This document shows positions 30,752 through 61,907 of a DNA stretch of 64,000 bases, in pieces. Position 1 is the stretch's first letter. Each line of letters begins with the position of its first letter. Made by a program: the position numbers and the translations under genes. The DNA is taken from positions 558,001-622,000 of the forward strand of contig NZ_CP081862.1 of the NCBI RefSeq assembly GCF_019797765.1, in the 5' to 3' direction. The notes under the pieces were generated by a model. That model searched no databases. It saw only the letters and a list, made by a program, of their open reading frames with translations, and was not told the DNA's origin. This DNA is from Cellulomonas sp. C5510 (GTDB taxonomy: Bacteria > Actinomycetota > Actinomycetes > Actinomycetales > Cellulomonadaceae).

Positions 30752-31177
30752 TCAGGCGGCCGGGGCGAGCGGCGCGCGCAGCGGCCAGTCCTCCGTGAGG
30801 ACGGTCTGCACGGCCGTCCCGCTCACGGGGTCCAGGACCAGGGGCGCGAGGAGGTTCGCGGTCGGCGGCTCGCCTCCGTCCGCGGGGCGGACCACGACGA
30901 GCCGCACCGCGTGGGCGCGGTCGGTGCCGAGGGCCGCGAGCACGTCCGCGTCGAGGGCGGGCGCGTACTCCGGGAAGAACACGGCCGGGTCGACGACGAA
31001 GAGCCGCACCGGGCGGGCACCCTCGGGCTCGGAGCGCAGCGCGTAGAGCACGCCGGCGTCGTCCAGCGGGGTGAGCGTGAAGTCCTCGTAGCCCGCGAGC
31101 CCCGGCATGGGGGACTGCAGGTGGAGGTGCTCGGGCAGGTGGGTGCGACGCGCGGCGTCGACGAGGTCAGCGGTCAT
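30752..31177 (-). CDS. fliW: Flagellar assembly factor FliW
   Basis: 141 residues. The family pattern MPGLAGYEDFTLTPL near the start and PTANLLAPLVLDP near residue 107 identifies FliW. FliW binds flagellin in the cytoplasm and, when freed by flagellin export, binds CsrA and relieves its block on flagellin translation. csrA is encoded at 61644, and the fliC leader has CsrA-type sites, so the circuit is complete in this window. The ATG overlaps the flgL stop as ATGA (31174-31177). Confidence 0.93.
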   Translation of the reverse strand: MTADLVDAARRTHLPEHLHLQSPMPGLAGYEDFTLTPLDDAGVLYALRSEPEGARPVRLFVVDPAVFFPEYAPALDADVLAALGTDRAHAVRLVVVRPADGGEPPTANLLAPLVLDPVSGTAVQTVLTEDWPLRAPLAPAA

Positions 31178-34360: not shown

Positions 34361-35236
34361 GTGAACAGCTCCGCAGCCGCCCCCGCCGTCGCCGACGACC
34401 TCGTCGTCGCGCACATGCCGATCGTCGGCTACCACGTCAGCGAGGTCCTGGCCCGGGTCCCCGCCACGGTCAGCCGCGAGGACCTCGTGTCCGCCGGCCA
34501 CCTCGCCCTCGTGCTCGCCGCCCGCGCGTACGACCCGGAGACCGGCGTGCCGTTCGCCCGCTACGCCGCGCTGCGCATCCGCGGTGCCCTGATCGACGAG
34601 CTGCGCTCGATGGACTGGGCGTCGCGCGGCGCCCGGCACCGTGCCCGCGAGCTGTCCGCGGCCAGCGACCGGCTCACCGCCGCGCTCGGCCGCACGCCGT
34701 CGCGCGAGGAGCTCGCGTCGGCGCTCGGCACGGACCTCGCCGCGGTCGACCAGGCCCGCCAGGACGCCGAGCGGCGCGTGCTGTCCATCGACGCGACCGT
34801 GCACCCCGTGGCGGAGCTGGTCCGCGACGAGACGCCCGGCCCGGAGGAGAACGTGCTCACCGGCGAGCGCCTGCGCTACCTGCGCGCCGCCGTCGAGACG
34901 CTGCCCGAGCGGCTGCGCACCGTCATCGAGGGCCTGTTCCTGCAGGACCGGTCCGTCGCGGAGCTCGCCGACGAGCTCGGGGTGACGCAGTCGCGCATCA
35001 GCCAGCTCCGCACCGAGGGCCTCGCGCTCATGCGGGACGGCCTCAACGCGAGCCTCGACCCCGACCTGGTGCCCGCCGCCGAGCGTCCCGACGGCGTGGC
35101 GGAGCGCCGCCGCCGCACGTACTTCGCCGCCGTCGCGTCCCGCGCCGCGATGACCGCCGCCAGCCACCAGGCCGACGTCGCCCGGGCCGTCCCCACGCCG
35201 TACGAGGACGACGCCCGCCGGGCCGCGGCGGTCTGA
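34361..35236 (+). CDS. fliA: RNA polymerase sigma-28 factor for flagellar genes (FliA/WhiG family)
   Basis: 291 residues. Region 2 (about 18-90) has DLVSAGHLALVLAARAYDPE and FARYAALRIRGALIDELRSMD, diagnostic of the FliA/SigD/WhiG group. Region 3 is about 96-160. Region 4 (about 178-228) has LPERLRTVIEGLFLQ and a helix-turn-helix VAELADELGVTQSRISQLR. About 60 extra residues follow. Start GTG 34361 lacks a strong ribosome site. It directs transcription of late flagellar and chemotaxis genes; seven matching promoters occur in the window. No anti-sigma factor flgM is visible in the window. A perfect hairpin terminator follows. Confidence 0.93.
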   Translation: MNSSAAAPAVADDLVVAHMPIVGYHVSEVLARVPATVSREDLVSAGHLALVLAARAYDPETGVPFARYAALRIRGALIDELRSMDWASRGARHRARELSAASDRLTAALGRTPSREELASALGTDLAAVDQARQDAERRVLSIDATVHPVAELVRDETPGPEENVLTGERLRYLRAAVETLPERLRTVIEGLFLQDRSVAELADELGVTQSRISQLRTEGLALMRDGLNASLDPDLVPAAERPDGVAERRRRTYFAAVASRAAMTAASHQADVARAVPTPYEDDARRAAAV

Positions 35237-35256
35237 GGCGCACCGGAGCAGCTCAC

Positions 35257-35308
35257 GCACGGCGCAGGGCGCCGGCCGCACACCCGCGGCCGGCGCCCTG
35301 CGCCGTGC
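35257..35308 (+). terminator. Hairpin terminator of fliA
   Basis: A perfect 23-bp stem (35257-35279 with 35286-35308) closes on the loop ACACCC, 20 nt after the fliA stop, and is followed by GGGGGGTG. There is no U-tract. It separates fliA from the fliC promoter. Confidence 0.88.
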
Positions 35309-35371
35309 GGGGGGGTGCCCGCGGGGCGCGGCGGCCGTGCCCCACCCGGACGGGTGAACCGGCGCGAAACC

Positions 35372-35397
35372 CTCAGGCCTCCCGGCGCCCGGTCGAA
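35372..35397 (+). promoter_or_regulatory. Sigma-28-type promoter of fliC
   Basis: CTCA (35372-35375), 16 nt, then GTCGAA (35392-35397). Transcription would start near 35404, giving a leader of about 52 nt. Confidence 0.72.
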
Positions 35398-35409
35398 GGT
35401 CAGGGGTGA

Positions 35410-35447
35410 GCCCACGGATGGGCCACCTCGACCCGAATCAAGGAGGA
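35410..35447 (+). promoter_or_regulatory. CsrA-type binding sites in the flagellin mRNA leader
   Basis: GCCC (35410-35413) and GGGC (35420-35423) form a 4-bp stem presenting the hexaloop ACGGAT, the preferred ANGGA-in-a-loop CsrA target. A second GGA lies in the Shine-Dalgarno AAGGAGGA (35440-35447), 26 nt downstream. This matches the two-site layout of the Bacillus subtilis hag leader, where CsrA blocks ribosome binding. Confidence 0.65.
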
Positions 35448-35455
35448 AGAGAACC

Positions 35456-36649
35456 ATGGGTCTCTCCGTCAACACCAACATCGCGGCGCTGAACGCGTAC
35501 CGCAACCTGTCCAGCACCCAGAACGACCTCAGCAAGTCCCTCGAGAAGCTCTCGAGCGGCCTGCGCATCAACCGGGCTGCGGACGACGCTGCTGGTCTGG
35601 CGATCTCCGAGGGTCTGCGCGCCCAGATCGGCGGCACCACCCAGGCCGTGCGCAACGCCCAGGACGGCATCTCGGTCGTCCAGACCGCTGAAGGCGCGCT
35701 CACCGAGACGCACTCGATCCTGCAGCGCATGCGGACCCTGTCCGTGCAGGCGTCCAACGACGGTGGTCTGTCCTCCACCGCCAAGGGCAACATCCAGGAC
35801 GAGATCGGCGAGCTCAAGAAGGAGCTCACCCGCATCTCGGACACCACGCAGTTCAACGGCAAGACGCTGCTGAACGGCTCCTACGAGGGCGTGTTCCAGG
35901 TCGGCGCCAACACCTCGAGCGCCGACTCGATCACGGTCGACCTGACCGCGAAGTCCATGAGCGCGGCCGGCCTCGGCGTCGACAACATCGACGTCACCTC
36001 CGGTGGCTCGACCTGGACCTTCGGCCCGGGCACGATGGACTACGCGGGTGCGGCCCCGGCCGCCGACCTGTCCTTCGCGTTCGGCGGCAACACCTACACG
36101 GTCGACGCCGCGTCGATCACCTGGGCCGGCGGCGGTACCGCCAACGCCAGCCAGGCGGAGGCCAACCGCAACGCGCTGCAGTCCGCCGTCGACTCCGCGC
36201 TGTCGGGCTCCGGCCTGTCGGTGAAGTTCGGCGCCTACGGCGACGTCACGGTCCAGGGCCCGGAGAAGACCGCCGCGGGTGCGGCCGTCGTCACCGGTGA
36301 CCTGGTCGCGGACGTGGACGGCGCCGCCGGTGCCGACACCGCCACCTTCGCGAACGTCGCGTCCAACGCGGGTGCGACCTCGGCGATCGACGCCATCGAC
36401 GCGGCCATCCAGTCCGTGTCGAAGGTCCGCTCGCAGCTCGGTGCGGTCCAGAACCGCTTCGACCACACCATCAACAACCTGAACGTCGCGGTGGAGAACC
36501 TCTCCGCGTCGGACAGCCGGATCCGCGACACGGACATGGCCTCGGAGATGGTGTCGTACACGCGGGCGTCGATCCTGTCGCAGGCCGGCACCGCGATGCT
36601 CGCCCAGGCCAAGTCGCTGCCGCAGAGCGTGCTCCAGCTCCTGCAGTGA
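35456..36649 (+). CDS. fliC: Flagellin
   Basis: 397 residues. The conserved N-terminal D0/D1 region (about 1-145) has LSVNTNIAALNAYRNL, LEKLSSGLRINRAADDAAG and AQDGISVVQTAEGAL. The C-terminal D1/D0 (about 305-397) has SQLGAVQNRFDHTINNL, RIRDTDMASEMVSYTR and ends PQSVLQLLQ. The middle (about 150-300) is the variable, surface-exposed Ala/Thr/Gly-rich part. It is the filament subunit, exported by the flagellar type III system with FliS as chaperone. AGGAGG (35441-35446) is the strongest ribosome site in the window. The leader carries CsrA-type sites and the gene ends in a 20-bp hairpin. Confidence 0.97.
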   Translation: MGLSVNTNIAALNAYRNLSSTQNDLSKSLEKLSSGLRINRAADDAAGLAISEGLRAQIGGTTQAVRNAQDGISVVQTAEGALTETHSILQRMRTLSVQASNDGGLSSTAKGNIQDEIGELKKELTRISDTTQFNGKTLLNGSYEGVFQVGANTSSADSITVDLTAKSMSAAGLGVDNIDVTSGGSTWTFGPGTMDYAGAAPAADLSFAFGGNTYTVDAASITWAGGGTANASQAEANRNALQSAVDSALSGSGLSVKFGAYGDVTVQGPEKTAAGAAVVTGDLVADVDGAAGADTATFANVASNAGATSAIDAIDAAIQSVSKVRSQLGAVQNRFDHTINNLNVAVENLSASDSRIRDTDMASEMVSYTRASILSQAGTAMLAQAKSLPQSVLQLLQ

Positions 36650-39045: not shown

Positions 39046-39172
39046 CCCCGGTCGGGCGACCCTGCGAACGCCCCGCACCCCGCGCGGCTGGGGACGGGAG
39101 CGGGCGAAGCGGACAGACCGCGCGTATCCCCTCCCTCGCGCGGGTGACGCGGCAAGAAGTCCGCCCTGGACC

Positions 39173-39198
39173 CTCAGTGCGGTCCCGTCGCCGCCGAT
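39173..39198 (+). promoter_or_regulatory. Sigma-28-type promoter of the flgB operon
   Basis: CTCA (39173-39176), 16 nt, then GCCGAT (39193-39198), an exact match to the copies upstream of fliM, cheA and the EAL-HDOD gene at 21894. It lies about 80 nt before flgB. Confidence 0.78.
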
Positions 39199-39279
39199 GG
39201 GGGCAGTGAGCAGGGATCGCTCGCGCAGCAGGCCACGGACAGGCCGATCAGGACCAACCTCGGTGAGGGTGACCCTGCC

Positions 39280-39627
39280 ATGGGCATGTTCGACTCCGTG
39301 AGCTACGTCGCGCTGAACAGCGCGCTGGACGGGCTGGCCCTGCGCCAGCGCGTGATCGCCGAGAACGTCGCGAACATCCAGACGCCCGGCTACCAGGCCA
39401 AGAAGGTCCAGTTCGAGGACGCGCTGGCCCGCGCGGTCGACGGCGGCACCGGCGCGACCTCCGCCACCGTCGCCCGGTCGCTCGAGCCCACCCGCACCGA
39501 CGGCAACAACGTCAACCTCGACGAGGAGACGCTGCTCAACGTCGACACGAACCTGCGGTACCAGCTCGCGACCCAGGCCGTCGACGGCACGTTCTCCGGC
39601 GTGCGCATCGCGATGCGGACCTCCTGA
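39280..39627 (+). CDS. flgB: Flagellar proximal rod protein FlgB
   Basis: 115 residues. It begins FDSVSYVALNSALDGLALRQ with the rod-protein core VIAENVANIQTPGYQAKKVQFE. The C-terminal half has NVNLDEETLLNVDTNLRYQL, typical of FlgB. It forms the rod base with FlgC and FliE. The ATG at 39286 is an alternative start two codons downstream. It is the first gene of the long basal-body and export operon. It is coupled to flgC (TGATG, 39625-39629). Confidence 0.95.
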   Translation: MGMFDSVSYVALNSALDGLALRQRVIAENVANIQTPGYQAKKVQFEDALARAVDGGTGATSATVARSLEPTRTDGNNVNLDEETLLNVDTNLRYQLATQAVDGTFSGVRIAMRTS

Positions 39628-49472: not shown

Positions 49473-49616
49473 TGCACGCCCGGAGGCTGCGGGTGGGTGG
49501 CCGGGCGGGCGGGCCGGTCTGTGCGCGGGGCAGGGGCGGGGAGCGCGCGTTCGTCGTCGACCAGGGCCCAGCGGCCGGCGCAGCGGCAAGGCGACCGGGC
49601 GAAGTCCCGCAAACGC

Positions 49617-49642
49617 CTCAGCCCCTCCGGGCCCCGTCCGAT
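49617..49642 (+). promoter_or_regulatory. Sigma-28-type promoter of flbD-motA-motB-fliL
   Basis: CTCA (49617-49620), 16 nt, then TCCGAT (49637-49642). It differs from the commonest copy only in the first base of the -10 and lies about 78 nt before GTG 49721. Confidence 0.72.
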
Positions 49643-49720
49643 GGGCTGGGGTGAGCGGCACACGGACGGGCCGCCGCGGCGCACTCCGCCGCAGACGCAC
49701 CACCAGGGACGGGAACCGCT

Positions 49721-50044
49721 GTGATCATCGTGACGCGCCTGAACGGGGCCCAGTTCGGGGTCAACCCGGACCTGCTCCAGCGCGTCGACAGCGCTCCCGA
49801 CACCATCCTGACCCTCATCGACGGGACGAAGTACATCGTCCGGGAGTCGATGGCCGAGGTCATCGCGCGGGTCAACGAGCACCGCGCGCAGCTCCTGGCG
49901 CGCGCCCAGGAGATCCAGGCCGCGCCGTCGCCGGCGGTCGAGCTGGTCCGGGACGCCGACGAGGCGCCGGCCGGTGACGACCCGGGTGACGAGGGCGACG
50001 GCCCGCTCGCCGACCCTGTCCCCCTGAGACCCAGGAGCCGCTGA
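49721..50044 (+). CDS. flbD: FlbD-family flagellar protein
   Basis: 107 residues. It begins IIVTRLNGAQFGVNPDLLQRV and continues LTLIDGTKYIVRESMAEVI, the whole of the small FlbD domain found next to motA in many Gram-positive flagellar clusters. Family members are often called SwrD and raise motor power in Bacillus. The C-terminal 45 residues are an acidic Pro/Asp-rich tail. This is not the Caulobacter NtrC-type FlbD. Its stop overlaps motA as TGATG. Confidence 0.9.
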   Translation: MIIVTRLNGAQFGVNPDLLQRVDSAPDTILTLIDGTKYIVRESMAEVIARVNEHRAQLLARAQEIQAAPSPAVELVRDADEAPAGDDPGDEGDGPLADPVPLRPRSR

Positions 50045-50811
50045 TGGATCCCGCCGGCTTCATCGGGCTGGTCGTCGCCTTCGGTGCGATCTTCGGCGCC
50101 CTCATCATGGAGGGCGCCGACCCGATGTCGATCTTCCTGCCCGCGCCGCTGCTGCTGGTGTGGGTCGGCACGATCGGCGTCGGCATCGCCGGGCACACGG
50201 TCAAGGACGTCATCGAGTCGTACAAGGCGGTGCCCCGCGCGCTGATGAGCAAGGTCCCGGACCCGACGACGACGGTCGACACGCTGGTGGAGCTGGCGGA
50301 CCGGGCGCGGCGCGAGGGCCTGCTGGCGTTGGAGGACGCCGCGAAGGACATCGACGACCCGTTCCTGCGGGGCGGCCTGCAGGCGGCGATCGACGGCACC
50401 GACCCGGACGACCTGCGGATGATCCTCGAGGACAAGATCGCGACGAAGCGGACCCGCGAGAAGACGCACGCGAAGTACTTCCAGGACATGGGCGGCTACG
50501 CCCCGACCATCGGCATCATCGGCACGGTCATCTCCCTGGTGCACGTGCTGGAGAACCTGTCCGACCCGTCGTCGCTGGGCCACTCCATCGCCGCCGCGTT
50601 CGTCGCGACGCTGTGGGGCATCCTGTCCGCGAACGTCGTCTGGCTGCCGCTGGGCACCCGCATCAAGCGGTTCTCCGACCTGGAGTGCGCGCAGATGGAG
50701 GTGACCCTCGAGGGCCTGCTGGCCGTGCAGGCCGGCGCCAACCCGCGCCTGGTCGGCGAGCGCCTGCGCAGCCTGCTGCCGGACACGCCCGCCGCGAAGG
50801 AGGCGGCGTGA
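50044..50811 (+). CDS. motA: Flagellar motor stator protein MotA
   Basis: 255 residues with four predicted membrane segments. It starts PAGFIGLVVAFGAIFGALIM, has a large cytoplasmic loop with Arg/Glu-rich stretches (ADRARREGLLALEDAAKDID) that contacts FliG, and ends with TM3 YAPTIGIIGTVISLVHVLENL and TM4 near residues 190-210. With MotB it forms the proton-driven stator. It overlaps flbD (TGATG) and motB (GTGA). Confidence 0.96.
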   Translation: MDPAGFIGLVVAFGAIFGALIMEGADPMSIFLPAPLLLVWVGTIGVGIAGHTVKDVIESYKAVPRALMSKVPDPTTTVDTLVELADRARREGLLALEDAAKDIDDPFLRGGLQAAIDGTDPDDLRMILEDKIATKRTREKTHAKYFQDMGGYAPTIGIIGTVISLVHVLENLSDPSSLGHSIAAAFVATLWGILSANVVWLPLGTRIKRFSDLECAQMEVTLEGLLAVQAGANPRLVGERLRSLLPDTPAAKEAA

Positions 50812-61643: not shown

Positions 61644-61907
61644 ATGCTGGTGCTGAGCAGGCGGGTCGGGGAGCGACTCGTGATCGGGGACGACATCGTC
61701 GTGACCGTGATCGAGGTGCGCAGCGACGGAGTCCGCCTGGGCATCGACGCCCCGCGCTCCGTGTCCGTGCACCGCGCGGAGGTCCTCGAGGCCGTCACCG
61801 CCGCCAACGTCGCCGCGACCGACGCCGGCGACGACGCCGTCGAGTCGCTCCGCGGCCTCATCCCGCCCACCCCGGAGGACCCGGAGGGCGGCCCCCGCCC
61901 CCGCTGA
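61644..61907 (+). CDS. csrA: Translational regulator CsrA
   Basis: 87 residues. MLVLSRRVGERLVIGDDIVV and VRLGIDAPRSVSVHRAEVLEAV are the conserved RNA-binding core (the Arg of VHRAEV contacts GGA). The last 30 residues are an acidic Pro-rich tail beyond the usual 60-75 residues. CsrA dimers bind GGA sites near ribosome sites; in Bacillus the target is flagellin mRNA and FliW is the antagonist. Both fliW (30752) and a fliC leader with matching sites are present here. Translation is probably leaderless. Confidence 0.96.
   Translation: MLVLSRRVGERLVIGDDIVVTVIEVRSDGVRLGIDAPRSVSVHRAEVLEAVTAANVAATDAGDDAVESLRGLIPPTPEDPEGGPRPR

Follow-up and report, generated by a model that had tools for sequence, protein, structure and literature searches.

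The leader of the flagellin gene fliC of Cellulomonas sp. C5510 is very probably a translational operator through which CsrA represses flagellin synthesis. It lies at positions 35370-35455 of the window, the stretch of 64,000 nucleotides (nt) that was analysed (positions 558,001 to 622,000 of the forward strand of contig NZ_CP081862.1, assembly GCF_019797765.1). Comparison of sequences establishes the presence of a GGA-bearing hairpin in this leader, its conservation and covariation, and the co-occurrence of csrA with flagellin. On the same analysis, CsrA would almost certainly bind the leader, would be highly likely to repress fliC, and would probably be removed from this role by FliW.

The hairpin GCCC-ACGGAT-GGGC occupies positions 35410-35423 of the plus strand, with the loop ACGGAT at 35414-35419 and the loop GGA at 35416-35418. 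A bulged A and the outer stem GGTG/CACC extend it to 35405-35427 (+), which is the proposed high-affinity CsrA site. The minimum free energy (MFE) structure calculated with RNAfold for 35404-35456 (-17.5 kcal/mol) contains the hairpin with this outer stem and bulge; the A and the T of the loop are paired in it, leaving a CGGA tetraloop. The Shine-Dalgarno sequence AAGGAGGA (35440-35447, +) has one GGA at 35442-35444, 26 nt from that of the loop, and another at 35445-35447, and is the proposed second CsrA site. It is followed by the ATG at 35456 of fliC (35456-36649, +), which encodes a flagellin of 397 amino acids having Pfam Flagellin_N and Flagellin_C domains. A sigma-28-like promoter is situated at 35370-35398 (+), with CTCA at 35372-35375 and then TCGA at 35393-35396. 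A preliminary description of this DNA, made from the letters alone, had given the hairpin and its GGA hexaloop correctly to the base, as well as the second GGA and the 26 nt spacing. The loop fits the ANGGAN hexaloop described for RsmE-RNA structures (PMC7652899).

The conservation of the hairpin was determined with a rule that requires an A-N-GGA-N hexaloop between 18 and 80 nt 5' of the start codon and a stem that scores 7 or more with no more than one mismatch. One set of leaders was taken from the 80 GTDB loci, out of 498, that rank highest in similarity to the flagellin of the window, and is thus non-random (54 actinobacterial and 26 Bacillota loci). The other two sets came from a collection of assemblies. 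In the order, 74 genomes, that of the window among them, gave 94 leaders; in the rest of the phylum 48 genomes gave 58, some extra flagellin copies there being left out. Five genomes of the order (G451, G533, G542, G570 and G610) gave no full flagellin match and no fliC leader, so that 74 of 79 are counted. The hairpin was found in 93 of the 94 leaders of the order (91 of the 92 distinct ones) and in 52 of the 54 GTDB loci of Actinomycetota, L038 and L052 being the two that fail. Since three GTDB leaders also occur, letter for letter, in the set of the order, the union of these two sets holds 143 distinct leaders. The hairpin occurs in 140 of them. Among random windows taken from actinobacterial loci it occurs in 109 of 8379, a rate that is if anything too high because flagellin leaders were not purged from part of these loci; its presence in the leaders is thus not due to chance. 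The rule was passed by 7 of 767 other windows that have a Shine-Dalgarno sequence plus a start codon.

Other measures of conservation are in agreement. When the stem is required to have at least four Watson-Crick pairs and the first loop base is left free, GGA occupies the loop in 78 of the 94 leaders of the order and in 27 of the 58 from the rest of the phylum, compared with means over the other 63 trinucleotides of 0.95 and 0.94, respectively; the next best trinucleotide in the order reaches 8. The hairpin is recovered by MFE folding in 68 of 74 genomes of the order, as against 15 of 600 control windows. Nine genomes yielded more than one flagellin leader, and all 29 of these leaders have the hairpin.

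The stem covaries. An alignment (A1) was made of the window's leader with 50 of the 51 passing GTDB leaders that are no longer than 75 nt, L022 having been removed by hand for its length. With no structure supplied, RNAalifold returned exactly the four stem pairs from these 51 leaders, all with compensatory changes. Over the 49 distinct rows 96.9% of the cells are paired, against 84.7 in shuffled alignments, and 15 cells have changes on both sides, against 1.1. The covariation score is 0.284, compared with 0.054 in shuffles and a maximum of 0.054 when the partners are slid, and none of 500 shuffles reaches the observed value on any of five covariation measures. The preliminary description had proposed conservation and covariation of the GGA loop in relatives as a check on CsrA control, and both are borne out.

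The csrA gene (61644-61907, +) encodes 87 amino acids, matches TIGR00202 above its cut-off and is the sole csrA match in the genome. The fliW gene (30752-31177, -; 69.8 bits with Pfam FliW, cut-off 25) is the last in a minus-strand run of flgN, flgK, a flgL-like gene and fliW. Three of these were recognized by Pfam FlgN, FlgK and FliW, and the flgL-like open reading frame (ORF) matches Flagellin_N only. The presence of both genes in the window had been stated correctly before. The predicted FliW is related by phmmer to the Geobacillus FliW of the FliW-CsrA complex 5dmb (E 2e-5), and the window's CsrA can be aligned with the CsrA of that complex through residue 69, past the 53-position Pfam core. 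This alignment is at most suggestive of binding between the two proteins.

The order is represented by 258 genomes, of which 79 have flagellin-domain matches and 77 have csrA. Both occur in 75 genomes, flagellin only in 4, csrA only in 2 and neither in 177 (Fisher p 2e-57). FliW was found in 77 of the 79 flagellin-positive genomes, and csrA is present in 54 of 56 further flagellin-positive genomes of the phylum sample. Because of this co-occurrence across the order and the phylum sample, csrA looks like a flagellar gene in these bacteria. CsrA and FliW have been counted among the flagellar proteins searched for in earlier work (PMC10746217).

The flbD-motA genes are likely to be a second direct target of CsrA. 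Their leader, which the preliminary description had missed while describing that of fliC, lies at 49615-49720 and has the same design. A sigma-28-like promoter at 49615-49644 (+; CTCA 49617-49620, then CCGA 49638-49641) is followed by the hairpin GCGGCAC-ACGGAC-GGGCCGC at 49655-49674 (+), a proposed CsrA site with its loop at 49662-49667 and one A.G mismatch in its stem. The Shine-Dalgarno region GGGACGGGA (49706-49714, +) contains two GGA and precedes the GTG of flbD, also called swrD (49721-50044, +; Pfam FlbD). The motA gene (50044-50811, +; Pfam MotA_ExbB and MotA_N) is situated directly 3' of flbD.

Orthologous flbD leaders, one per genome, were collected from 79 genomes (77 distinct leaders), the window of the rule being set to 18-90 nt before the start. 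The hairpin is present in 52 of the 79; the other 63 trinucleotides average 0.49, and shuffles average 0.86 with a maximum of 3. When the first loop A is left free, GGA scores 53, against a mean of 3.02 and a best other trinucleotide of 12. A Shine-Dalgarno sequence of the form GGA-Y-GG accompanies 50 of the 52 hairpin-bearing leaders, as opposed to 12 of the 27 others. The hairpin is distributed by family: it is found in 9/10 leaders of f1, 12/12 of f81, 12/12 of f87, 6/13 of f88, 4/5 of f82 and in all 9 of the small families f3, f77, f79, f83 and f90, whereas the rule finds it in 0/7 of f2, 0/4 of f5, 0/4 of f86 and 0/3 of f4. That this hairpin is a relic or a chance likeness, flagellin alone being regulated, is unlikely. 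The mismatch in the window's stem, its 5.6 bits with R1, a covariance model of the fliC leader, the 27 of 79 leaders that fail the rule and the 41 of 79 that fail MFE folding would all be accommodated by a relic, but the excess of GGA over other trinucleotides and shuffles, and its association with the GGA-Y-GG Shine-Dalgarno sequence, speak against one.

Genome-wide scans were made with R1, which was run on 16 genomes, and with R2, a joint model of the fliC and flbD leaders that includes the promoter. Both were built from such leaders, those of the window included, and matches to these are therefore expected by construction. In each whole genome the best 150 candidates were scored, out of 1722 (R1) and 12748 (R2) in the genome of the window. 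Among them R1 gave fliC at E 6e-13 and the next match at 0.19, and R2 gave fliC at 8e-9, flbD at 1.3e-6 and the next at 4.5e-4. On the whole window with filters off, R1 returned fliC at 1e-14 and the next match at 0.098; R2 returned fliC at 1e-10 and flbD at 2e-8 (match 49615-49719). Three relatives lacking flagellin and csrA matches had best R1 E values of 0.048-0.7 among the best 150 candidates, and with R2, among the same number, one had a match at 0.06 and two had none up to 0.3. Weaker R1 matches in the flagellar clusters of four other genomes (G505, G557, G605 and G464) all stand directly before a small gene, identified by its Pfam FlbD match as flbD/swrD, after which comes a motA-like gene.

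The position of the hairpin relative to the promoter bears on two alternatives in which CsrA takes no part. A promoter pattern CTCA...CCGA, which we take to be the sigma-28 consensus, is common to the leaders of the order in a second alignment (A2), the rows of which, other than those from the window, were chosen by a promoter regular expression. A2 consists of 72 of 97 leaders, the rest having been removed by hand mostly as near-duplicates, plus 2 from the window. Matches to the expression occur in 56 of 74 fliC leaders, in 76 of 79 flbD leaders and in 33 of 600 control windows. The loop GGA lies at a median distance from the end of the -10-like element of 20 nt in fliC (72 leaders) and 22 nt in flbD (50 leaders), and because this distance is short the hairpin should sit near the predicted 5' end of the RNA. 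The spacing between the loop GGA and the first one in the Shine-Dalgarno sequence has a median of 30 in fliC (92 leaders, range 15-64) and 25 in flbD (52 leaders, range 16-50).

A hairpin so close to the predicted 5' end might be a stabiliser of the fliC messenger RNA (mRNA), or a structure that keeps the Shine-Dalgarno sequence open, and the persistence of a stem lacking GGA in some distant families would be in keeping with this. Such a function would need the stem but not the conserved A-N-GGA loop, in which GGA outnumbers the next trinucleotide by 78 to 8 in the order, nor would it account for csrA following flagellin; it is very improbable. The conserved block might instead be a DNA element 3' of the promoter that RNA polymerase or some transcription factor recognizes, given its near-fixed distance from the -10-like element (66 of 72 fliC values fall at 16-24 nt). 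Some distances are 31-53 nt, however, and the compensatory changes in the arms imply pairing. Moreover, none of the 15 flbD leaders of f2, f5 and f86 has the hairpin, yet at most 3 of the 79 flbD leaders lack a promoter match. A DNA element is therefore an extremely improbable explanation, and a hairpin bound by CsrA in the RNA is preferred.

Several observations weigh against CsrA control of these leaders. Outside the order the hairpin is found in only 26 of the 58 leaders from the rest of the phylum, though csrA is almost always present there. In family f17 (L214, L218 and L221), where csrA is also present, the flagellin leaders were seen by eye to have a GC-rich stem at the same place with a loop that lacks GGA. 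A good Shine-Dalgarno sequence normally contains GGA; the GGA of the proposed second site is thus generic and carries little weight alone. The rows of A1 and A2 were preselected by the hairpin rule, which inflates the pairing in both, and in A2 the number of pairs with changes on both sides is 3, not above the shuffle mean of 2.5, the other four measures being above. The FliW encoded in the window is divergent in sequence: it matches five NCBIfam FliW models but does not reach the cut-off of any of them (best 54 against 165). One genome, G557, has no FliW-family match among the ORFs searched, which did not include the one after flgL, though it has kept csrA and both hairpins. A csrA-less flagellated clade was sought as a control and none was found, the order's four candidates (G423, G514, G548 and G570) being fragmented or incomplete; as csrA tracks flagellin, these genomes offer no good control of that kind. 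Finally, of the 79 flbD leaders only 38, two of the three from f4 among them, form the hairpin on MFE folding. FliW scores are low across the ten genomes of family f1.

Pairing was also measured in leaders taken without regard to the stem, the first A-N-GGA-N after a promoter match being used in 56 of 74 fliC and 57 of 79 flbD leaders. In this unselected material 253 of 280 fliC cells and 239 of 285 flbD cells are paired, compared with a maximum of 204 for each in 500 shuffles of the arms.

The mechanism proposed is modelled on B. subtilis (PMC6529632, PMC7652899) and C. jejuni (PMC4894983). The sigma-28-like promoter places the covarying A-N-GGA-N hairpin near the predicted 5' end of the RNA, where one pocket of a CsrA dimer could hold the loop GGA while the other holds the GGA of the Shine-Dalgarno sequence. 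CsrA bridging the two sites would block the ribosome on the fliC leader, and FliW would remove it. If export stalled, free flagellin would occupy FliW and the repression would return. Having the same design, the leader before flbD-motA would let the switch set the motor operon as well. The bridging geometry, suggested already in the preliminary description, fits both the hag sites of B. subtilis, where BS1 is A51-A55 and BS2 is C75-G82 (PMC8523840), and the flaA leader of C. jejuni, which is 45 nt long with two ANGGA loops (PMC4894983).

CsrA might bind mainly to promote decay of the mRNA, or the leader might act as a sponge for CsrA, and not in translational repression. The flaA mRNA of C. 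jejuni also titrates CsrA (PMC4894983), and the hag transcript of B. subtilis is restricted by it (PMC6529632). In the fliC leader, however, the second GGA lies within the ribosome-binding site, and a translation block is described for both model systems. These roles are not exclusive, and decay or titration as the principal one is rather unlikely. Translational repression thus remains the preferred function of the fliC leader.

The likeness to the Hag-FliW-CsrA system of B. subtilis consists of two CsrA sites about 25 nt apart, one of them over the Shine-Dalgarno sequence, the presence of fliW and csrA, and flagellin as the target. The systems differ in gene arrangement: fliW and csrA are adjacent in B. 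subtilis and are translationally coupled near 1:1 (PMC6529632), whereas here fliW follows the flgL-like gene and csrA is 30.5 kb away on the opposite strand. Of the 74 genomes of the order that have both genes, 15 have them side by side on the same strand, 45 in other arrangements on a single contig and 14 on different contigs. In 43 of the 45 same-contig cases they are 27-93 kb apart, the remaining two being G538 (125 nt, opposite strands) and G316 (3 kb). A further difference from B. subtilis is the second leader, before flbD-motA. C. jejuni resembles the window in having a short leader with ANGGA both in the loop of a hairpin and at the site of ribosome binding, the structure being supported by compensatory changes in other Campylobacter species (PMC4894983); there are two stem-loops there, whereas in the window's leader a conserved hairpin is present at the first site only. 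Clostridioides difficile likewise has predicted BS1 and BS2 sites in its fliC leader, but belongs to a different phylum, and the available part of the report does not mention a second operon (PMC8523840).

Control of flagellin by CsrA has been proposed for an actinobacterium before. The genome paper of Kineococcus radiotolerans (2008) reported csrA in a motility island and suggested flagellin control like that of B. subtilis (PMC2587704). Its basis was a match of the Shine-Dalgarno sequence to BS2 in 9 of 12 bases in one genome; hairpin, conservation and an flbD leader are not mentioned in the available part of that paper. Actinobacteria were also listed in 2015 among the groups that may use FliW (PMC4682653). 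The preliminary description had claimed a complete circuit in an actinobacterium: csrA, fliW and a two-site leader are indeed present, but the circuit is less new than it implied. For flagellin its interpretation is supported by the comparative analysis, which adds another case of a known switch, now with strong comparative support. Judged from the same comparisons, the flbD-motA leader and the uncoupled fliW and csrA genes set this variant apart.

No report of CsrA control of flbD-motA was found in the literature searched, which consisted of open-licence papers. A swrD-motA-ompA-fliL operon has been deduced in an actinomycete, with no CsrA site mentioned in the part of the paper available (PMC9019756). 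In C. jejuni, motA mRNA co-purified with CsrA with a 10.3-fold enrichment in one of four tabulated values, the others being 0.8 to 1.8 (PMC4894983), which is a weak precedent for a motor target.

The similar hairpins before flagellin and motor genes suggest one protein switch that sets both filament and motor output. CsrA is familiar chiefly as a global regulator that acts on many targets. It is an evenly balanced question whether in flagellated members of the order it serves instead as a dedicated switch of two operons, fliC and flbD/swrD-motA, and not as a global carbon regulator. The genes for filament growth and torque would then rise and fall together under a FliW-CsrA checkpoint, and families f2, f5 and f86 would have lost the motor arm or never had it. 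A restriction to two operons is weakened by the scoring of the best 150 candidates per genome, as further targets are possible. The nearly 1:1 occurrence of csrA with flagellin, and the way in which, in the window's genome, the leaders of fliC and flbD stand out from the other scored candidates, support flagellin control as an old core role of CsrA. If the motor-operon leader is genuine, filament assembly and motor output are joined in one post-transcriptional checkpoint.

Flagellin leaders outside the phylum were available from the 26 Bacillota loci (L053, L055-L057, L061-L070, L072-L083), several of them from one genome. An A-N-GGA hexaloop hairpin was found in 20 of these leaders, with quite different stems; 36 of 2038 Bacillota control windows pass the rule.

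The gene directly 5' of fliC (34361-35236, +) encodes a sigma factor of the FliA/WhiG family with Pfam sigma-70 regions. Its top NCBIfam match is TIGR02479 FliA_WhiG (169 bits, under the cut-off of 189.6). Between this gene and the fliC promoter is a perfect 24-bp inverted repeat with a 6-nt loop (35256-35309), which is probably a terminator. A search of the window and of 13 loci with Rfam 15 gave no match at the gathering threshold, and for 35300-35560, which takes in the fliC leader, there was none up to E 1.

Among the other matches to the models, that at 409-488 (+; R2 34.8 bits, E 7e-6 on the whole window) has a promoter-like sequence before an ORF starting at 489 and was not accepted, because its GGA is not enclosed by a clear hairpin. 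Two further R1 matches in the window's genome (L243 and L244) yielded nothing convincing on reading. Before a flgB-like ORF at 39280, the stretch 39171-39249 (+; R2 30.3 bits, E 6e-5) has a CTCA...CCGA promoter-like sequence and a possible GGCC-ACGGACA-GGCC stem-loop. It may represent a third such leader or merely a shared promoter, and was not accepted as a target. In two other genomes (G464 and G505; R1 matches L239 and L242) a response-regulator-like gene has GGCCACGGACGGCC and CAGGGAAGAGG before its start, and is a possible lineage-specific target of CsrA.
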